Shown piece after piece: positions 48,601-63,949 of a stretch of DNA of 64,000 nucleotides (position 1 is the first letter of the stretch; every line of letters begins with the position of its first letter). The DNA lies in NCBI GenBank assembly GCA_029204225.1, contig CM055097.1, forward strand, positions 60,082,073 through 60,146,072. Reading direction: 5' to 3'. Source of the DNA: Diphasiastrum complanatum. Taxonomy: Eukaryota > Streptophyta > Lycopodiopsida > Lycopodiales > Lycopodiaceae. The notes beneath the pieces were generated by a model, which worked only from the letters and a program-made list of their open reading frames with translations, had not been told where the DNA came from and did no database searches. The position numbers and the translations under genes are program-made.

Positions 48601-49235
48601 CTCATCACTGCCTTTGGCTGTTTGGTGATTGCAATTCACTATGCACTTGGTTTAGTTGCTAGCCACCATACTTTTTTCTTCTTGTTCCCAATTCTAGCCT
48701 ATGCCATGAGCAATGTTTACTCAACGTTGAGGCTATCCACGTGGCATCCGTTTGTTGGCCCTGCAACGTTGAGGCTATGCTAGTCACGTGCCATTAGTTT
48801 GTTGGCCCTGCTCTTCTTGGGCATTTATCTAGGGACAAAAGCTATTCTTCACCAACTAATGACGTGTTAGCATCACGTTCATCTGGGGACAAAAGCTATT
48901 TCACAGTTTTGCAAAACATTTTTATTAATGATATTAATGGACGTGCACATGAAGGCCACGTGAATCATTATGTGGTCATCGTGACCCCATCATGCTGCAC
49001 GTGATAAGGTGATAAGTGATAACGATCAGAGCACAACTTCTTAGAGATAGAGCACAACTTGTATCTTGCTGCTCAGACAAATGCTTGCATCTGCTGAAGA
49101 GATCGTGTTGCAAGGAGGTATCGCTACACAGAACAGTTGAAGAGATCGTGTTGCGAGGAGGTCCAGTTACGTGACAGAGAATTGTCTATTATAATATTCA
49201 TAGTGCATTTTGCAATGTGGACATGCCGTCCACAA
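48601..49235. other. Non-coding with small direct repeats
   Basis: CAACGTTGAGGCTAT...TTTGTTGGCCCTG occurs at 48722-48763 and 48764-48810. GGGACAAAAGCTATT occurs at ~48831 and ~48885. GAAGAGATCGTGTTGC occurs at ~49096 and ~49140. No gene seen. Confidence 0.6.
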
Positions 49236-49239
49236 GGTA

Positions 49240-50100
49240 CCAGCATGATTGTTTGGTTCATATTTTGCTGTTGCATTTGGATTCAGATGGGATGGGCGGT
49301 AGCGTCGATCTCAGCGCAACGAACTCGTTGAAGGGGCCGTTGAGATTGAGGGTGGAGGTGATGATCATGACATTGTGCTCAAACATGCGAGCTGCAAAGC
49401 CACTACCGCCGCCTAGATCAAGCCCAATGCGGATTGTCCCCCAGAATTTGCTCGATCTTCATGAAGTCATGGGGAATCGCCCAATGATTTCTTTGTGGCC
49501 CAGTGAGCTCAAAGCAATATGTGTAGTCAGCAAAGGCTTTGCTCTCTCTCGCTTTTCTATTTATACACTCGAAGCTCTTGCAAGAGTAGTGTGTCCATCG
49601 CACCGTGTCACCAGGTGGGCAAGACCAAAGGACGCTTGGAGTACTGGATCAGAGCTCTAGCAAAACAACGTCGTTGGGGGAGAGGCTCACTACCATAAGC
49701 TTCTGCGCCAGCGCCCAGTGCGCCAAGTCATCAGAACACAGATCACCCACAGTGTAGCTCATATACTCTTTTAGCAGCTCTTTATGCAGGTAGCAGAGAT
49801 GGCCAATCGAGGAAGCCATGGTTTGTGATCCATAGGAAGGATTCCTTCTCAGAGGCAAACGCCGATCTTCAGTGAATTCTAGCAGCTCTGAGCTAAGAAG
49901 TGTTTCTTATTCTTCTTGCTTTTGCTTGATAATATTGTCTCCATAGCTACACCTTGTGTGAGCTGCGCATGTGGTCCAACAAATGTCTTTGTGTACGACG
50001 AAGTCCCTCACGGATTGAGGATAGTTCATGAAGGATAGATGTTGGTAGATCACTATGGAGCTGGGTCCAGCTTGTAGAAGACAAGCTATGCTGAAGCTCC
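49240..50100 (-). pseudogene. SAM-dependent methyltransferase (plant DUF family) pseudogene
   Basis: Minus-strand remains of a plant-specific putative S-adenosylmethionine methyltransferase, recalling Arabidopsis proteins such as At5g40830. From the right: weak N-terminal text ILHELSSIREGLRRTQ (~50020); SSELLEFTEDRRLPLRRNPS (~49880) and KEYMSYTVGDLCSDD...WALAQKLM (~49700-49790), where the family has MSYxVxGxCPDDxxLAQKLM; a stop near 49658; WTHYSCKSFECINRK and CFELTGPQRNHW (49603-49480); then after a one-base shift TIRIGLDLGGGSGFAARM, the SAM-binding motif I, and NVMIITSTLNLNGPFNEF (49430-49290). The glycine motif lacks one residue and the cysteine/arginine-rich segment after LAQKLM is gone. 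The C-terminal half is missing. Clearly broken. Confidence 0.72.
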
Positions 50101-50123
50101 GGAGCTATAGAGAGGCGGATCCA

Positions 50124-51565
50124 TTTGACATTATTTCATCATTTTAAAATGGATATATTATGATTGTCCATATCTTTCACATCTTAACATGCAAAAGGAT
50201 TACAAATGTATGTATCATGAGATCACATAGAAGTGTGAATAAACACATATAATTCAAATTTAATTTACAACATAATCACATAGCTTTGTATAATCATAAA
50301 TCGATAGAATTGTTGTGCCTTGTAGATTGCCATATGTATTGAGCAATAGGACATAGATCGTGTTTCTATAAGATTCTAACACAACTTAGGATACTTCAAG
50401 ATATTTTGTGAAGGTTTTTAAATCCTCTTGCTTCCTAATATTTGCTTTTTAATCTTATTGGTGGCGATTATATTTGCCCACATTTGTAATCCAATGTAGT
50501 ATTTTCAATTTCCTACTTTTAATTTTTAATATCACTTTTCCATGTTTGTACCTATTCTATATTCATTTTTGGTGCATGGCTACTTATTTTGTTATGTGCT
50601 ATTGATGAATTTTTAAAACCACTTTTGTGTTGATAATTATTGATTTCTCCTTGATGAACAACTATTCCTTTACCTAGATGTTTTTGATGAATGTATAACT
50701 ACTATGGTTGTTTGTTGCATGGTTAGCGCCAATTTCTGGTTATTTTGAATTCATTTATTGTTCACGGCTATTCACTTAACTATGTGCTATTGATGACTCT
50801 CAATAACCATTTGTGTACCTGATAATTATTGATTCATCTTTGCTGCACAACTATTTACTTGATTGGGTGCTATTGATGAATTGTTTGTTGCATGATGACT
50901 CTTCAGTTTCGGAATATTCTAAATTCATTTTTGGTGCATGGCCATTTATTTGGCTAGGTGCTACTCATGAATTTCCAATAATTTTTTCTACACCTGCTAA
51001 TTGTCGATTCATTTTTGGTGCATGGCCATTCATTTGGGTAGGTGCTATTGATGAATGCATAATTATCATGGTTGTTTGTTGCATGTTTATTATTTAAGAA
51101 TTGTGTGCAATCTATGACTGTGTTGCCTGAAGATTTGAAAAATACATAAATGTTTCAATTTTAACATTTTTAGTATATGTTTTTATTTTTGTATGTGATT
51201 TAGTACATTTCAATTTTGTATTTCATATTTCAATCACAACACATGCTTACAATTTCATATTTCTAGTATTATCAACTCATTAACTTTTTTATGATTCATA
51301 ATAACTTAATTGTGATTCATGAAGTGGGCTTTATTACGAGACTGGGTCTGTAAATTGTTATTCCTAATTAGTAAAAAAGACTTTTTTATCATATGCAATT
51401 TGTTGTTTTAACAGTTGTTCTACAATCAAATTTGTTATTGTAAATTCAATATTTCGGCATTAGTAACCGTTAAGTTTTTCCACAAAAATTATCGGCGACA
51501 AAAGAAAAATTCTTCTCAAATCTTTACGTACATCTATTTGCAGAGATTTCAACAACTTTTACATG
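50124..51565 (+). repeat. Helitron 5'-region repeat R1
   Basis: First of three tandem copies of ~1.4 kb, aligned with R2 from CATTAT...TATTATGATTGTCC to the end, where it reads GDKRKILLKSLRTSICR, the N-terminus of the Helitron gene at 54162. It contains nested ~85-bp subrepeats (TTCATTTTTGGTGCATGG at 50562, 50922 and 51010; TGCTATTGATGA at several places). Open frames inside arise from the subrepeats. Confidence 0.85.
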
Positions 51566-52018
51566 CGCATTGAGAGTGACGAGCAGCGGATTCGATCGAA
51601 ACCAAGAAAATGTTTCATTATGACAAAAATTTAGACCAGGAGTTTGCAAATGAACGAGATATGAACTACATAGGCATGATCCACCTTCTTTGTAATATAT
51701 GATGTAAGTTCACGAAACTTTACTTGCATATATCATTCAACTTTGAAAAGCTCTACTGACTTTTCTCAGAAGATGAGTACAAGTTATTAATATGCATTTC
51801 ACATTGGTAAAATAATGTCAATTAGATGCGAACGATCTTTTCTTTGGCAAACTTCAAAGTTCAAATTTCATATTGCGAAATTGTACGAAGACATGCATAA
51901 TCTCCTTCCTGAAAAATTTGAAGAGGACAATTGCCACCTCTTCATGGCAACATGCCAACAACACAATACTAACATTTCTAACTTATAACAACTACTAACA
52001 ATGTGGAAAAGGCTATTC
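51566..52018 (+). other. Unique segment between R1 and R2
   Basis: Contains coding-like plus-strand text: MRIESDEQRIRSKPRKCFIM next to the R1 end, and RCERSFLWQTSKFKFHIAKL with NLLPEKFEEDNCHLFM at ~51830-51960, ending in a stop. Not recognised; it could be part of a related transposon gene. Confidence 0.4.
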
Positions 52019-53436
52019 GCATCCAATCGACATTATATTATGATTGTCCGTATCTTTCACATCTTAACATGCAAAAGGATTACAAATGTATGTATCATGA
52101 GATCATATACAAGCGTGAATAAACACATACAATTCAAATTTAATTTACAACATAATCACATAGCTTTGTATAGTCATAAATAGATAGAATTGTTATGCCT
52201 TGTAGTTTGCCATATGTATTGAGCAATAGGACATGGATCGTGCGTCTATTAGATTCTAACACAACTTAGGATACTTCATGATATTTTGTGAAGGTTTTTT
52301 AATTCTCTTGCTTCCTAATATTTGTTTTTTAATCTTATTGATGGCAATTATATTTGCACACATTTGTAATCCAACGTAGTTTAATTTTCAATTTTCTACT
52401 TTTAATTTTTAATATCGCTTTTCCATGTTTGTATTTATTCTATATTCATTTTTGGTGCGTGACTATTTATTTTGTTATGTGCTATTGATGAATTTTTAAT
52501 ACCCACTTTTGTGTCGATAATTACTGATTTCTCCTTGGTGCACAACTATTCATTTACCTAGCTATTTTTGATGAATGTATAACTACTATGGTTGTTTGTT
52601 GCATGGCTAGTCGCCAATTCCTGGTTCTTTTTAATTCATTTCTAGTTCACGGCTATTTACTTGGCTATGTGCTATTGATGACTCTCAATAATCATTTGTG
52701 TACCTGATAATTATTGATTCATCTTTGGTGCACGACTATTTACTTGATTGGGTGCTATTGATGAATCTATATTTACCATGGTTGTTTGTTGCATGATTAC
52801 TCTTCAGTTTCGAAACATTCTAAATTCATTTTTGGTGCATGGCCATTTATTTGGCTAGGTGCTACTCATGAATTTCCAATAATCCTTTCTATACCTGCTA
52901 ATTGTCGATTTATTTTTGGTGCATGGCCATTCATTTGGGTAGGTGTTATTGATGAATGCATAATTATCATGATTGTTTGTTGCATGTTTATTATTTAAGA
53001 ATTGTGTGTATTCTATAACTGTGTTGCCTGAAGATTTTAAAAATATATAAATGTTTCAGTTTGAACATGTTTAGTATATGTTTTTATTTTTGTATGTGAT
53101 TTAGTACATTTCAATTTTGTATTTCATATTTCTAGTATTATCAACTCATTAACTTTTTTATGATTCGTAATAACTTAATTGGTGATTCATGAAGTGGGCT
53201 TTATTACGAAGTTGGGTATGTAAATTGTTATTTTCTAACTACTAGAAAAGATTTTTTATTATATGCAATTTGTTGTTTTAATTGTAAATTCAATATTTCG
53301 GCATTAGTAACCGTTAAGTTTTTTCGCAAAAATTATCGGCGACTAAAGAAAAATTCTTCTCAAATCTTTACGTACATCTATTTGCCGATCAATAAGTGGT
53401 TTCAACAACATTTAGTTACAAGAAATTCTTTGTAAT
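52019..53436 (+). repeat. Helitron 5'-region repeat R2
   Basis: Second copy, ~1.88 kb downstream of R1. It ends after the first ~31 codons of the Helitron gene (KILLKSLRTSICR, FNN, then LQEILCN), and at 53437 it jumps into the middle of the next repeat. Confidence 0.87.
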
Positions 53437-54161
53437 GGCTATGTGCTATTGATGAATCTCAATAACCATTTGTGTACCTGATAATTATTGATACATCTTT
53501 GGTGCATGATCATTTACTAGTTAGGTGCTATTGATGAATCTATAACTACGATGGTTGTTTGTTGCAAGATTACTCTTCAGTTCCTGATTATTCTAAATTC
53601 ATTTTTGGTGCGCGACCATTACTTGGCTAGGTGCTACTCATGAGTGTCCAGTAATTCTTTGTATGCCTGATAATTGTCGATTCATGTTTGGTGCATGGCC
53701 ATTCATTTGGGTAGATGTTATTGATGAATGCATAATTATCATGATTGTCTGTTGCATGTTTATTATTTAAGAATTGTGTGCATTCTATAACTGTGTTGCT
53801 TAAAGATTTTAAAATTATATACATGTTTCAATTTTAACATTTTTAGTATATGTTTTTATTTTTGTATGTGATTTAGTACATTTCAATTTTGTATTTCATA
53901 TTTCAATAATAACAGATGCTTGCAATTTCATATTTCTAATATTATCAACTCATTAATTTTTTTATGATTTGTAGTAACTTAATTGTGATTCATGAAGGGG
54001 GCTTTATTACAAGGCCGGGTCTGTAAATTGTTATTCTTAACTAGTAAATTTTTTTTTTATTATATGCAATTTGTTGTTTTAACAGTTGTTCTGCAATCAA
54101 ATTTGTTATTGTAAATTCAATATTTCGGCATTAGTAACCGTTAGATTTTTCCGTAAAAATT
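53437..54161 (+). repeat. Helitron 5'-region repeat R3, upstream of the gene
   Basis: Third copy, partial at its 5' side (starts in the GCTATGTGCTATTGATGA subrepeat) and continuous with the Helitron gene. The same TTTCGGCATTAGTAACCGTT block precedes the start in all three copies. Confidence 0.87.
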
Positions 54162-57100
54162 ATGGGTGACCAAAGAAAAATTCTTCTCATATCTTTACGT
54201 ACATCGGTTTGCCGATTAATAAGTAGTTTCAACAACACTGAGTTACAAGAAGTTGTTTGTAATGAGGCTCATGTGAGAGCACTTACAAACAAAATAATTC
54301 AAGCGGCGTGTAAAAAGTATAACTCCAAAGAAGAAAAAGTCTCAGAAAATATTTCTAGTTTTATTGGAAATGTCAGTAAGTGTCTTCAAGACTTGGGAGA
54401 TGAAGTTCCCTTGAGGATAGATAGAACTAAATTAGAATGTTGGGACAAGCTGTGGAGAATACAGAATGAAAAAAACATAAAAGAGCTAAACACATCGAGT
54501 CAGTAATTGTGCTATCAAAAAAAATGTTGGGATTAGAGCCTTTTGTAGTGCAAAATTTAGCCTTCGTTGATGTTTCAATTGAAACAAAAAGATGATATAA
54601 AATTTTTTTAGAAGGCTGGATCACGACAAAATCATTGCTTGATAATGCAATTGCATGTGATCTACATATTGAAAATGAGTCTGCGAAGAGAAAGTCCTTC
54701 AAAGATTGTTAAAACAAAATTTTAAACATAATTCATTATTTGCAAGGTTTTACACCATCTATGAGAAAAATGCTTCGGACAATAGTCTAGCCTTCATTTC
54801 TCTACAATCTATCGATCATCTTCTCCCTGGCAATGTTGCATATGAAACTATGACTGTTGACTCCCTCCAGAAATCGTATATTCTACTAGAAGATACAACC
54901 CCATTATCAAAGCATAATAACAAACGACATCATGATATTTATCAAGATTCAAATGTAAAACTAAGAAACAGTAACACAATTTACAAAACATATAGAACTT
55001 GTAAATACTAGTCAACATGATGAGGAACCCACGTTAACATTGGAAACGAGCCTGTTTCCTTTTTTATTTCCGTTTGCTCATGGATTTTATGATGGAAATA
55101 TAAGCTTTGTTGATTATGCTAGCCTACGAGCAAGTTCTTTCTTTTCGATTTTTACACTATATCCGCCCTACATAATAGTCATACCAAATTAGGCAAGCAA
55201 TTTTAATATCAAATAGTGTTCCATCAATAGTACTACAAAAAGATATAATCAGCTTTCTCTCAAAGAATAAGAAAGCATCTTAACAACAAATATTCAGTCA
55301 TGTTTTAAAATATACTCTACCAACTCAAATTCCAAACACACCATCTTGGCATAGACGCAATTTAAAAGATCTCTTAACAATGGTTGAACACTAGGGACTC
55401 CCCCAATTTTTTTTATCATTGACTGTGGACGAAAATTCAGAGACGAATTGGTTTGAAATCACTGGAATAAAGAAAATTGCACAACAAATAAACATGGATT
55501 TTTATTGGCGAAATTGTCCGATTGAGTATACGATGCTATTTGTGGCCCGATTGGAAAGATTCATGAAAGAGTATCTACTTTCAAACTTCTTCTTAGGAAG
55601 AATCAAACACCATCTCATTCGATATGAGATCCAAAACAGAGGATCGGTTCATGCACATATCATGTTTTGGATTGAAGAAGAAGATGTAGAAACAATTCCA
55701 AATGAAATCGTTACATGCATTCCAACAAAATGGAATGACCAATTACACAAATTTGATGAGCCTATTAATGAATTTGATAGAGACCTATACAATTTGGTTG
55801 TTAAAAAACAGATCCATTATTGTCGAAAAACTGCAGAATAAAAGGCAACAGAAAAAATCCATGCAATTATGGATTTCCATTTCAACCATCTTCATCACCA
55901 ACACATGTAAGTTCCGAAAATAGAAATTGGATATATTATCGACCTAGACATGAAGATAGGAATGTAGTACCATATCATCCAAGTATACTTTTTCTTTAAA
56001 AAGCGCACATGAACTTACAAAGGATTAGCAGCACAAATTGGTCATATTACATTCTAAAATATGCTATAAAGTCTGAACCATCTGGACATTTAAATCTGGA
56101 AATAGAAGATGCAAAACGTATAGGATTGGAATACACGGACAATAACATGTTAAATCTAATTACAACATCAATCTTAACAAAGCCAACAAGCCTACCTGAA
56201 ATAACATTTGCTTGTTTGCAAATTCCTATGATAAAAAGAAACGAAGCTGTTCATTATATTGATAGTTCTCCTCAAAATCTTAGATGTAGATATGTGAGTC
56301 GAAATAACACATTGATGTTCCATCCAATGTTTACACATACAGACTTGTAGAATTGGAAAATATAACATTCTATAAATTCTGGAGTATGTACGATATAGAA
56401 AAAAATTAAAAGTCAATACTCCTTTTGATTACATTGACAAGACATGAAACTACTTGTATAGGAGTAGGAAACTTATAAGATTTACTGACTATCATCTTGT
56501 GCATCATACAAAAGCCTTCTTTTTCAATGTTTTGCTCAAAAACGTATGTTTTCGTAATGAGCAAAAATTGATAAGAGAAAATAATACTGATCGTTCATAT
56601 TTCTTGGAGTGCGTACTTCGAAATTTTGTTGAGAAAGAGGAGGATATCGATATCTACAGAATACGCCAATAGACAACTTTTTGAAAGAGAACAACGACAA
56701 GAAATGTCAAATATACTTCTACAAAAAAAATTGCTTATCAACAAAACATTAACAATGTCAAAATCAGCAATCGAAAATGCACAAACCATATCTTTTCCAG
56801 AAGATACGAAAAATGATTTGGGCTTGGAATCTGAATTTGAAAACATGCGGATTTCATCGCTTACTGACGAACAAGATAAGGCATATAAAATTATTACAAC
56901 TCAAATTCAGGATTGTTTATTCTATCAAGCACTCAAGGAAGTGAAAAAACATTTTTGATACGATACCTCACTATCGAGAAAAGACAACAGATTTTGTTAG
57001 CCGCAACAACAGGTGCAGCTGCATCTCGATTAGCAAAACAAGCATTCACAATCCACAACTTATTCGCAATTCCAATATATCAACTTTACATAAAAAATCT

Positions 57101-58125
57101 GATACCAACCGATTTCCGACACAAATTAATATCTGAGGCCAAATTTATTGTGATAGATGAAATGTCAATGCTAACTGCTCAAATTTTAACATATGTAATT
57201 CAATAAATAAATCAAGCAAAAACAAATCCATCTAGCACTGTATTTGAAAATTATATCTTACTTTTAGTCGGTGATCATGCACAGCTTCCAACCATTTGTA
57301 AACACAAATCAGAATCACTTTGTTTAATATGTCATCTTTTAAACTCTCCATTCTGGAAAATTGCAACACACTTGCAACTATCCTACTCAATTAGGCATGC
57401 TGAAGATCCTGAATACCTTCATAACCTTAACAAAATCAGATTCCAAAAGCCCACGCAACTGAAAATAGACGAAACATTAACTAGTTGTGCACTTCCTAGG
57501 TCCGACATACCTGATGTAGCAAACCATAATACGACCATCATATGTACTCATAGAGAAGATGTGCTCTATTTCAACAAACTCATCTTAGAAAAACTATTTT
57601 CTACCTCTGATATACTACAAATTTCTGTTAAAACAAATGCTACATTAGAAAGCGACCTGACAACATGGATCAATGATCCATTATTCCATCAAATTCCAAA
57701 ACTAGCTATAGGAGCAAAGGTGATGGTACTTGCAAACTTGGATATTTCAAATGGTATAGTCAATGGCACCATAGCTCACATAACTGCCTTCAAATATTCC
57801 AAGATTCATGAATTGACAACAATCATCATTCAAACTGAAACCCAAAAAAAAAAAAATTCAATATAACAAAATCTGCATTTGCAAAAATTCAATTCGATAC
57901 AAAAATATTTTACAAATCTACATTTCCAATAATGTTAGCATATGCTATCACTGCACACAAAACACAAGGTGTGACCATTTGGGAAAAGCCATCCTAGATA
58001 TAAGATCAAATTTTGCATCTGGCTTGGTTTATGTCATGTTATTTCGAGTAACAAAACGTGAAAACTTGTTGTTAACAACTAAATTGACACCAGAACATTT
58101 CCAACCGATATTGATTTCCGTCTGA
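54162..58125 (+). pseudogene. Helitron Rep-helicase (HUH nuclease plus Pif1-type helicase)
   Basis: N-terminal region 54162-55011, broken by stops. Then SLFPFLFPFAHGFYDG and FVDYASLRASSFFSI (~55040-55150). The Rep domain (55300-56350) has FFLSLTVDENSETNWFEITG-like text, the two-histidine HUH motif in GSVHAHIMFW (HAH at 55650-55658) and the tyrosine motif YYILKYAIKSEPSG (~56042). Pif1-type helicase 56670-58125: Walker A region SSTQGSEKTFL (~56930), degenerate from the usual GxxGxGKT; AATTGAAASRLA; Walker B FIVIDEMSML (~57145); LLVGDHAQLPTI (~57264); GAKVMVLANLD; YAITAHKTQGVT (~57940); final YVMLFRVTKRENLLLTTKL and stop at 58123. At least seven stops or frame changes, so no active protein. Confidence 0.88.
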
Positions 58126-58266
58126 AACATAAATATCCGAAATACTGTCATATCTTCAGAGATGTACTATAATCATTTCTACCCTCTTATTTTGTCTTCA
58201 TGTATGACTTTATATTTTTATTTTTAAATATGTCTTTCTAATATTTGTAGATTATCAGAAAAAAAA

Positions 58267-59631
58267 ATGGCATCTGAAATTGAGTATGATCCAGAAGAGG
58301 TAATTATACAAATTTCATTCTCACTTTGGACTCATAAATGTCCTTTCTCGGAATAACTACAATATCAAATTCATTGTTTCAGTTATTCTGAAAATTGAAA
58401 GCCTAGATGTCCTCTTCGAAAACTTCTCCTGAAATACCATCATCCACAGAAAAAATATTCCCTACAACAAAAGAGATGTTCGTATTGAACTCATGTGGTA
58501 TTGATCCAAACACATACAATGAAGGCTTCCAAACAAATTTAGCTCTAAGCAGATTCATTGAACAAAAGAAGCACAAAAGAGGTCAATACATCAATCAATA
58601 TCATGGAGATCCAATTGAAGATATATTCTATTCTTATTCTTTTATAATTTTATAACATTCTATTTTTTTAAATGTCCATTTTTAATCACCTAGTACAAAA
58701 TCTATGAATGTTAAATACATCTTTTGAAATGCCATTCTTATTTCAGGGTTTTTAAAACATCTATATAACATATTCTCCATAAACATCCCTGCAACAATCA
58801 CAACAAATCGACCAGCAATACAACATTTCCGATGCTATGTTAAATAAGAACTACTACACAACGAGAAATCTTTACTCCGGCTACAAGATTCCAATTGATG
58901 ATTGAAAAGACATGAGTCGTGCCGAACTGAACGCAATCACAACGGGTTTGGGAAAAAAATTGGGCCACTTGTCAGATGACGGTACAAAGCTAACACATGG
59001 CCCGATTTAAATTGACACAGTTTTGGAGATTCTTGAAGGCGAAGTTTCTGCAATGATAACTAACCCAGTAAGTGTGTGTTGTCGTCTACATTTCCATATA
59101 TGTGATTATAAGTAACCGTTTTAACCCATTACATGTTAATACAAAATTTCTTGCAAGAAGAAACTTCTCCATCGACATTGCCATTTGCATCCAGTACACA
59201 GGTGAATTTGAACCATACAATGATCTTCTTCTTTATTTATAAGCTTTCCATTAAACTAATACGATCCGCTTGCAGGAAACAACATTAACAAAAAAACATC
59301 CAAGATCAAATATTCAATCTACAAAATAGAATGCAAAGAAACCCATAGTGTCTACATCGGTTAAACATGCAATCTACGACGCCGATTGCAACAACATGCA
59401 AGGCTACCACCCAAAAAAATGAGAAAACACTATTCTATGGACCGATCTTTTTATGAGCAGTTTCATGTTCAAGTTTTAGATGTTGTTGAAGATAGAAAAA
59501 TAGCTAACATAATCGAAAGGTTTTATGTTCGACATTACAAATCAACAAGCGAGTCTGGATACAACAAACTAAGATGTAATCCTGTAAATTCAAAGGCATA
59601 CTGGTATTTAAAGAGACGCAAGCTCCTATAA
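58267..59631 (+). pseudogene. Intron-containing gene with C-terminal GIY-YIG nuclease
   Basis: Probable exon 1 58267-58299 (MASEIEYDPEE, donor GTAATT). Exon 2 from 58407 (MSSSKTSPEIPSSTEK; CGIDPNTYNEGFQTNLALSR) if the AG at 58405-58406 is used. A block 58800-59070 has YTTRNLYSGYKIPIDD and MSRAELNAITTGLGKK, ending at a GTAAGT donor after SAMITNP. A small exon lies at ~59158-59201. The last exon, 59276-59631, is one frame with a single TAA at 59362-59364: KYSIYKIECKETHSVYIG, then TCNLRRRLQQH, then ANIIERFYVRHYKS and ESGYNKL. These give the GIY (SIY), YIG (YIG), arginine, glutamate and asparagine landmarks of GIY-YIG endonucleases, in order. Other stops at ~58771, ~58904 and ~59008. The N-terminal part is not recognised. 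Exon phases do not fully agree, so some junctions are uncertain. Confidence 0.72.
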
Positions 59632-60340
59632 TTCTGTTCATAATACATTTCTCACATGCCTTTCGTGTATGCCTGCCAATTAAGCTTTTGGCTTGTTAAT
59701 TTCAAATTTTTCTTCGTTCTTATGCTATATGTTACAACAACTTGGTTTTTTGCAAATTGTAATTCTAACAATTTTAGAGACAAATTTTTTAAGCTTTCAA
59801 CGTTCTTGATTTTTGTTGCGACTCTTACAAATAATTCAATAGCCTCATTTTCTGCAACTCAATGCAAGGTTAGAATTGTGTAGCCAGTTGTAACTTTTAC
59901 AATGTGTCAATAGAATGTCTCTTCAACTCAATGCAAGGCTAGAATTGCGTAGCTAGTTACTTATTGGACCTCCTTCTTGTGTGGTGTGCTAATAGTCCTC
60001 CTATGCATTGCATAGTTTTCGTCTTTGGAGAAGGACTTGTTCTACCTTGGGTTGCTTTGGACGCTTCATATGTACAATTTGTTAATATCTAATAGTAACT
60101 AAAGGTTTTGCAAAAAAAAAACACGGGCTTAAGGTCCCATAAGAGAAATGAAATGTACTCAATTTGATAATTCATAGTACAAGAGAGTGATTGTGTCCAC
60201 ATGCTAAAAGCATTTTTACTATTGTGCACTTAAAGTTTTGTATAATATTATTTCCAATAGTTAGTTATGTGAGATGCAAATTTCCATTGCTTGCTTATAA
60301 TGGGTTTTGTAGATTGCCAAGTGTTTAGTTTAGTTTATTT
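59632..60340. other. Downstream flank with 35-bp direct repeat
   Basis: CAACTCAATGCAAGG.TAGAAT..GTAGC.AGTT occurs at 59855-59890 and 59924-59958. A GGGCTTAAGGTCCC half-palindrome near 60124 is too weak to call a Helitron end. No gene seen. Confidence 0.55.
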
Positions 60341-62591: not shown

Positions 62592-62973
62592 TCAGTCGGG
62601 ATCGCAAATTTTGACAATTTTTTTGCCAATGTTTTTGCCTTCGAAGAGATCGATCAAGGCTCGCGGTGCCTTCTCCAAGCCTTCACTCACATCTTCAAAG
62701 TATACCAGTTTCTCGTCTTTCAAGAGCCCGCTCACTCTCTCCGTGAACTCCTCGTACAGGTCTTCGTAATCAAAGACAAGGAAGCCTTGCATCCTCACAC
62801 TTTTTGCAACGATGCGGAAGAGATTGGACACCCCTTCAGGCTTCTCAAGGTTGTACTGTGAGATCATTCCGCAAGCAGGAATTCGCCCAAACTTGTTGAT
62901 GTTCTCCAATACAGCTTCTAACATTTTCCCACCCACGTTCTCCCAGTATATGTCGATTTTCTTGGGAAGATGC
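62592..62973 (-). CDS. NADPH-dependent alkenal/double-bond reductase, last exon
   Basis: C-terminal exon of a zinc-independent medium-chain reductase (2-alkenal reductase / phenylpropenal double-bond reductase type), which reduces the alpha,beta double bond of reactive aldehydes or ketones with NADPH, normally in the cytosol. It reads IDIYWENVGGKMLEAVLENI, RIPACGMISQYNLEKPEGVS, FLVFDYEDLYEEF, YFEDVSEGLEKAPRALIDLF, GKNIGKKIVKI and ends CDPD with TGA at 62592. The DIYxENVGGKMLxAVL and CGMISQYN motifs are typical. The acceptor AG is at 62974-62975; 382 bases plus the 2 carried from the previous exon give whole codons, so the frame is consistent. No damage seen. Exact substrate cannot be told. 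Confidence 0.93.
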
Positions 62974-63414
62974 CTGTAAGGGAAGATAGGCTCCAACCAT
63001 AATAAGTGCAGTCAACCACAAAGTTAAGATTCTTAAAGCATTGAAGGTGTAGACTTAATCTAACGGAAAATACAATATAAAATAAAGCTTATCAAAGGTT
63101 TGACGATAGAAGTTCGAAGAATATGACTAATGTGATAAATACATTCGAGTCTGTCATGATTACTTTGATAGATATAAACAGACAGCATACAGTAAGTTTT
63201 CCACTCTGTGTCGAGTAACCGTGAGAAATGTATCACTAATGTCAAATTTTACCTAGAACGATTCCTCTGCATCACTTAGGCTTACCTTAAAGTTTGTCAA
63301 AAACAAAATTTTCAGCTTCAGAATTTTCCATCCTCATGTCCAGTGGCACAGAAATCATGGACAACAAAGCAACGTCAAAATACCAAAGACATGTTTTCCT
63401 TAAATTTTAGATTA

Positions 63415-63949
<535 letters not shown>

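Follow-up and report, generated by a model that had tools for sequence, protein, structure and literature searches.

Helitron2 elements (Bao and Jurka 2013, PMC3627910) carry asymmetric terminal inverted repeats of 8–15 bp, one arm located near the 5′ end and the other in a subterminal position at the 3′ end. They begin with a 5′ T, use the repeat in a 5′ hairpin and have a 3′ arm that lies ~20–30 bases from the end (PMC3627910). How Helitrons open their target and handle the second strand is not known to have been settled. In eukaryotic transposable elements, GIY-YIG domains have been stated to be part of Penelope-like elements (PMC5718144), and one has also been described in the Mariner-like element PGv-1 (PMC3627910). 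An initial annotation of the locus studied here knew of no established Helitron with a GIY-YIG nuclease, and we found no description of such a gene in the open-access literature searched, including the Helitron sections of PMC6585611 and PMC10487979; prior publication is not excluded.

We analyzed a 64,000-nucleotide stretch of genomic DNA from Diphasiastrum complanatum (the window, to which coordinates given without a contig name refer) in which a GIY-YIG exon lies downstream of a Helitron Rep/helicase (RepHel). Related helicase lineages bearing this exon form at least six families, named A, B (with C), D, E, F and G, and the window copy belongs to family A. The recurrence of the accessory gene that contains the exon, its fixed position, the element ends, its motifs, signs of purifying selection and its occurrence in six lineages are shown. 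We lean towards the view that it is an accessory gene of a Helitron2-type clade, encoding a conserved N-terminal domain of unknown fold and a C-terminal homing-type GIY-YIG domain, and that its product would serve as a second nuclease of transposition. The biochemical step and the nuclease activity are inferred, and there are no biochemical or expression data.

The element and its termini

The window contains an entire, decayed Helitron2-type element on the + strand (48685–59958), recognized from empty paralogous sites and shared termini, which reads from CCCAATTC, preceded by TT, to GTAGCTAG, followed by TT. The Rep part of its RepHel (HUH, Y2) occupies 55395–56350 (+) and matches PF14214 over 55395–55838 (E=1.3e-9); within it, HAH (RGSVHAHIM) and YxxxY (SYYILKYAIK), read by eye, are what we take to be the Rep motifs. 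The PIF1-like helicase part (56575–58128, +) is distributed over several frames and matches PF05970 (E=4.5e-10) and PF21530 (E=2e-7); the PF05970 match in another copy, L016, reaches E=5.8e-22. The criterion for the Helitron superfamily, a RepHel with an HUH/Y2 Rep and a PIF1-like helicase, is satisfied. No match to an AP endonuclease was obtained in the window pieces or in the family B helicase frames of L016 and L017, the sole copies tested. No copy of the element has been demonstrated to be complete or active.

Two further observations concern the surroundings of these genes. Self-comparison reveals that the 5′ part of the element (50154–54264, +) is rich in long direct repeats, with a ~1.4 kb unit, 88% alike, and smaller units. 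Just outside the element, pieces of a zinc-binding-dehydrogenase-like gene lie on the − strand (62592–63949); they match PF00107 at E=1.1e-6, slightly below the cut-off, and at E=0.019, and we take them to resemble plant alkenal reductase.

The ends were located using five insert-free paralogous stretches of the surrounding repeat, of which L060–L063 match both flanks and L064 the 3′ flank only. Two-sided alignment with the four empty sites L060–L063 placed the joins at 48683–48686 and 59956–59959, with several joins tied. TT flanks the element on both sides and, with equal-scoring joins (404) against diverged empty sites, a TT terminus and a TT duplication are indistinguishable. Joins at 48660/59974, preferred by a cruder flank scoring and located at the edge of the range, were rejected in favor of the two-sided alignment.

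At the 3′ end, the window element and five of the six fetched A copies terminate in AATTGYGTAGCTAGTT, with dissimilar flanks, and three D copies (L032, L035 and L037) terminate in the same way. The 5′ end TTCCCAATTCTAGCCTATGCC is common to the window, L012 and L013, and it contains CAATTCTAGCCT, the 12 bp 5′ arm (48689–48700, +) of an asymmetric terminal inverted repeat; the inverse of this arm, AGGCTAGAATTG, occurs close to the 3′ end, where the 3′ arm (59936–59947, +) stops 9–11 bases short of the element end. When the initial 40 bases were shuffled 5000 times, a length of 12 was never reached, with the caveat that the 40-base piece was picked after the inverted repeat had already been noticed. 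The repeat is present in three of the seven A copies examined (the window, L012 and L013), and neither it nor the 5′ end was found in the available stretches of L010, L011, L014 and L015. An early comparison of the family A 3′ end with the 5′ regions initially examined gave no inverted repeat because the real 5′ end sat further upstream.

A 5′ hairpin using the inverted repeat stands out from shuffles in L013 (z −3.0, 1/200 shuffles), the corresponding values for the window copy being z −0.88 and 34/200. At the 3′ end, evaluated in family A only, no subterminal hairpin rose above shuffles (z +0.53 in the window, +0.11 in L013). The ends do not conform to canonical Helitron1 (5′ TC; hairpin and 3′ CTRR), as the 5′ end is TTCCCAATTC and no 3′ hairpin is supported; CTAG itself fits CTRR. 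The 12-bp asymmetric terminal inverted repeat, the 5′ TT and the 3′ CTAG(TT) make it likely that the termini are Helitron2-like, a judgment that does not draw on any clustering of the RepHel with Helitron2.

In family B the 3′ end is sharp: with a query spanning the end, for which 40 of 109 candidates were scored, 36 of 39 other matches stop at query positions 220–223, where 220 is the last T of GCTAGTT. The family B 5′ end was not found with either of two queries. A candidate at AAGAAATAATG, seen in two copies, was discarded, most genomic copies extending further upstream, and a longer query gave several starts, the commonest at 1391 (9/49 rows) and 138 (7/49).

These ends bear on one alternative, that the GIY-YIG exon derives from a Penelope-like retroelement inserted next to the Helitron. 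GIY-YIG domains are known in Penelope-like elements (PMC9033089, PMC5718144), which speaks for this origin. Against it, no reverse transcriptase match was found in the Helitron pieces or in the six frames tested immediately downstream, and the GIY exon lies inside the shared element end in five of six A copies and five of six B copies fetched (L014 and L018 stop short). We consider a Penelope origin virtually ruled out and continue with the reading that the gene belongs to the Helitron.

As a separate observation, an inverted near-copy of the 3′ end of the window element and its flank lies ~128 kb away on the − strand (C6:60013553–60014379), matching the window at 99% over 300 bases; it might represent a segmental duplication.

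The accessory gene and its overlapping frames

The accessory gene starts with an ATG at 58267, 139 bases past the helicase stop (58126–58128) and on the same strand, and comprises five exons (all +). Exon 1 (58267–58299, MASEIEYDPEE) has a similar small exon by eye in families B and D; exon 2 (E2, 58383–58620) is broken in the window copy and has homologues in families B, D, E, F and G; exon 3 (E3, 58747–59067) encodes a strongly conserved domain of unrecognized family; exon 4 (59157–59201) is short and its acceptor is changed in the window copy; and exon 5 (59276–59631) encodes in its phase-0 frame a basic peptide followed by a stop, with the GIY-YIG domain in the −1 frame from ~59311. The GIY frame of the window reads KYSIYKIECKETHSVYIG, a stop, TCNLRRRLQQH and then, in order, IIERFYVRHYKS, GYNK and YWYLKRRKLL, up to a terminal TAA at 59629–59631; its one interruption is the TAA at 59362–59364. 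With X replacing this stop, the domain matches Pfam PF01541 at E=5.1e-10 (40 bits; cut-off 22.6), and the stretch 3′ of the internal stop by itself gives E=0.0037 and 18 bits, below the cut-off. A less-decayed family B copy yields E=8.2e-13. The initial annotation, made from sequence alone, had proposed a GIY-YIG frame with its motifs in order and a single TAA at 59362, in a gene starting 140 bp past the helicase stop on the same strand; these claims held, and the profile match is significant. The window copy itself is a decayed pseudogene, because there are stops in exons 2 and 5, splice sites are altered and the RepHel is spread over several frames.

Nuclease motifs are conserved among copies, and the activity is inferred from motifs and profiles. 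Two residues, His40 and Asn95, never vary in an 18-row alignment, and conservation reaches 90% at Y15, Y26 and G28; in the 20-row set used for dN/dS, four rows (L012, L013 and two of L038) have Lys in place of the presumed catalytic Glu. PF01541 matches all 18 aligned members at E≤0.1; two homing-endonuclease PHROGs and TIGR01453 also match 18/18 each, the last being below its cut-off in the one member shown. The GIY profile finds I-TevI at E=7e-8, and a single-sequence PDB search finds it at just E=0.7. A structure model (pLDDT 78, pTM 0.70) has I-TevI as its top PDB match (E=0.22); because no match reached 0.001 when two structure libraries were searched, this predicted fold is merely supportive. 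A search of IMG/VR with the GIY alignment returned 14 pattern matches, none of which was confirmed. By profile, the domain is closest to the phage and group-I-intron homing endonucleases typified by I-TevI.

This affinity brings in a rival explanation, homing, in which the nuclease would cut a site in insert-free copies or alleles and the element would be copied by repair, alongside rolling-circle transposition. The closest profiles, those of homing endonucleases, favor it. Against it, the 3′ flanks appear by eye to be unrelated save for TT, so that no long target site is evident, and we regard homing as an unlikely alternative to a second nuclease acting in transposition.

The initial annotation had also placed the GIY domain at the end of the gene, which held only in part: phase 0 from the consensus acceptor at 59275/59276 misses the domain, which is in the −1 frame, and how the domain connects with the upstream exons is unresolved. 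The phase-0 last-exon peptides, each terminated by a stop, are ETTSTKKRPRSNIQSTK (A, L013), DASPPPSKRPRTSTSHYTK (B), DLTPPPPPKRLRGSSSQSTK (D), ENTPPPKRARRTFTSTN (E) and NLHLPRKRNRTEAYGFTK (F); a basic peptide in frame 0 alongside GIY in −1 is seen in examples of A, B, D, E and F, five families in all. Twenty-six copies were tried, four of them without an anchor, and 13 of the 22 anchored copies combine a C/T-AG acceptor with a −1 GIY frame (A 2/6, B 5/6, D 3/5, E 2/4, F 1/1). One D copy (L046) has GIY in frame with its own acceptor; in the other anchored copies the acceptor is lost or shifted or the copy is truncated. Deviations from KRxR among the 13 are KKHPR in the window, KRPQ in L021 and a stop before the peptide in L019.

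Inspection by eye shows conservation of the KRxR peptide in frame 0 and no such conservation of the −1 linker, a pattern suggesting use of both frames; without expression data this is no more than a possibility. The final phase-0 stop could also be a by-product of YK(I/L) codons. An AG that restores the GIY frame lies 12–24 bases 5′ of the Tyr codon in families A, B, D and E and is absent in F, and phase continuity of exon 5 with exons 3 and 4 rests on a by-eye reading in A, E and F only. The overlap is compatible with splice choice and with −1 frameshifting, and either may apply.

The exon 3 domain has 27 invariant columns among eight rows. Sequence searches with it gave no credible family or structure match, and a fold model with pLDDT 48 was discarded as unusable. 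Its conservation is relevant to a further rival, regulation or warfare, in which the product would act in silencing escape or against competing elements instead of in the DNA steps of transposition. In support, conservation seems higher in the exon 3 domain than in the nuclease (mean column identity 70% vs 54%, with differing row sets), and a basic, nuclear-signal-like peptide terminates the phase-0 product in some copies. The tight linkage to the RepHel and the conservation of the nuclease motifs argue against it. We judge this rival unlikely too and retain the second-nuclease reading, for which homing and regulatory roles are the main competitors.

Recurrence, linkage and signs of constraint across the genome

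Searches covered the window's own genome (1.74 Gb, 5176 contigs). Candidates were scored in part only, 150 of 758 for an 88-residue GIY exon query and 150 of 779 for a helicase piece, so that both counts are lower bounds; for a control with the canonical Helitron Rep (PF14214) 150 of 1332 candidates were scored, and a PF01541 genome search reported 150 of 471. The copies are not fully independent because the assembly seems to contain duplicate contigs (e.g., C600, C4779 and C21, with identical scores).

In the initial match lists, at least 66 of 150 helicases (all contigs) have a GIY match within 6 kb downstream, against a chance expectation of 0.04 (large contigs). When GIY matches from a family B query and from PF01541 were added, at least 87 of 150 had one on the same strand within this distance, and with a second helicase query the figure was 98 of 197. 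The distances peak at ~1.5 and 1.64 kb and are typically 1.3–1.8 kb, 75 of the 150 scored helicases having GIY at 1.2–2.0 kb downstream. In the control, a single canonical Helitron Rep match in 150 had GIY within 12 kb downstream, at 8.4 kb. There were two off-pattern pairs: in one, GIY preceded the helicase, at a distance within 6 kb, and in the other it followed the helicase but lay on the opposite strand. Separately, the canonical Rep match at C19:33997427 falls within an open frame of 3591 residues.

Linkage is weaker when viewed from the GIY side. For 52 of 124 family A and 16 of 26 family B GIY matches, a scored helicase on the same strand lies no more than 15 kb upstream, and one lies within 6 kb upstream of 43 of 150 PF01541 matches and 97 of 318 GIY matches in total; limited candidate scoring and truncated copies may account for part of this. 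Of the 70 helicases without a scored GIY, eight were hand-picked for inspection, partly for long open frames, and E2 was present in all eight and GIY remnants in six. Six upstream stretches, hand-picked from 80 GIY loci without a scored helicase, contained E2 (6/6), E3 (5/6) and RepHel remnants (4/6). The initial annotation had reasoned that the gene would be a new Helitron accessory nuclease if recurrent and cargo if not. Recurrence was found, with 87 of 150 helicases having the gene at the same place in the same genome, which supports the former. The pattern that would have refuted it, Helitron copies lacking the gene and the gene occurring alone as a host gene, was not seen among the inspected loci (8 of 70 and 6 of 80).

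Two loci depart from this arrangement. On contig C8 (0.6–3.2 Mb, L038), 59 GIY matches, mostly of family C and in both orientations, span ~2.6 Mb, and just 1 of the 59 is linked to a scored helicase; Helitron 3′ parts could have been amplified locally here, perhaps in a satellite-like manner. L055 (C6:46175100–46178300) has a Rep piece and accessory exons with no helicase detected between them, and is possibly a deletion derivative that retained the GIY gene.

Among A, B, D, E and F, helicase identity is 40–68% by copy and GIY identity 37–58%; family G is partial (30–46% identity) and has Rep, E2 and GIY, and family F has helicase, E2, E3 and GIY across two adjoining stretches. Helicase and GIY identities correlate across the five families with r=0.71, a value matched by 11 of 120 permutations, and so provide no evidence.

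Within families, dN/dS of the GIY exon is 0.55 (A), 1.22 (B), 1.08 (C) and 0.54 (D, a single pair), and between families it is 0.15–0.44, the maximum being at B–C, the closest pair; this 20-row set left out matches shorter than 85 residues, those starting past profile position 12 and the duplicates L003, L005 and L008. Single-copy GIY ratios are 0.22 (A–B), 0.41 (A–D) and 0.14 (B–D). The helicase gives 0.14–0.20 in the five of six pairs that have a finite dS (B–D 0.14), and E2 gives 0.11 for B–D; the A–D ratio of 0.41 indicates weaker constraint on GIY than on the helicase. Synonymous sites are saturated or nearly so between most families, with infinite dS in several E2 and E3 pairs, and these values are therefore only rough. 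A passenger gene would be expected to have dN/dS of ~1. Taken as signs only, the ratios make it likely that the accessory gene has been under purifying selection across several old branches.

These data bear on the rival of captured cargo, in which a host GIY-YIG gene was picked up and spread as a functionless passenger. Two points are in its favor: Helitrons do capture gene fragments (PMC6431247, which also describes full-length gene capture as exceptionally rare), and the window copy is broken. Against it, the gene is present in six lineages whose helicases are 40–68% identical in the five compared, and the between-family dN/dS values are those given above. In addition, 14 further PF01541 matches, fetched as hand-picked short pieces, all fit the Helitron GIY profile (14/14, E≤1.3e-14); a host parent beyond the scored list is not excluded. 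Cargo is very unlikely in our view, and we return to an accessory nuclease of the Helitron.

Proposed role and relation to known systems

In the proposed mechanism, the HUH Rep would nick one donor strand and, with its N-terminal domain as a guide, the GIY-YIG protein would cut the target or the second strand, a supposed parallel with the AP endonuclease of animal Helentrons that rests on our own comparison. One gene would give two products, one ending past the basic KRxR peptide and the other carrying the nuclease, which may arise via −1 frameshifting or splice-acceptor choice. A clade that keeps a dedicated second nuclease under selection would be a natural test of which transposition step needs one, and GIY-YIG enzymes would be connected to Helitrons, beyond Penelope-like elements.

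A bolder reading, which we put forward tentatively and would not at present back over its negation, is that a Helitron2-type lineage independently gained a homing-type GIY-YIG nuclease, as animal Helentrons have an AP endonuclease, and encoded it in an overlapping −1 frame, the ratio of KRxR-tailed to nuclease-tailed product being set by frameshifting or splicing. If this were true, a target-cutting second nuclease would be a repeated solution in rolling-circle transposition.

Among described systems, Penelope-like elements and the rotifer Terminons (PMC6431247, PMC5718144) resemble the present clade in being eukaryotic mobile elements with GIY-YIG, but they are retroelements with a reverse transcriptase, none of which was found at the window Helitron. 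Homing endonucleases of the I-TevI type share the catalytic domain and motifs, whereas the Helitron GIY protein has a different N-terminal part and no surrounding intron was noticed, without a dedicated search. Plant RPA Helitrons (PMC4683698) also carry an accessory gene, yet theirs is an RPA homologue and not a nuclease. The likeness to Helitron2 extends to the RepHel, the asymmetric inverted repeat (12 bp here), the 5′ T and, with support in L013 but not in the window copy, the 5′ hairpin; the differences are a 3′ arm 9–11 bases from the end in the window, no 3′ hairpin above shuffles and the added GIY-YIG gene. The 5′ TT and 3′ CTAG of the window element are as in proto-Helentron-Pi (PMC4067079). 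Helentrons (PMC4067079) likewise have a second endonuclease in addition to Rep, but theirs is of the AP endonuclease type and is fused C-terminally to the Rep/helicase, whereas in the clade described here it is a GIY-YIG domain encoded by a separate downstream gene.
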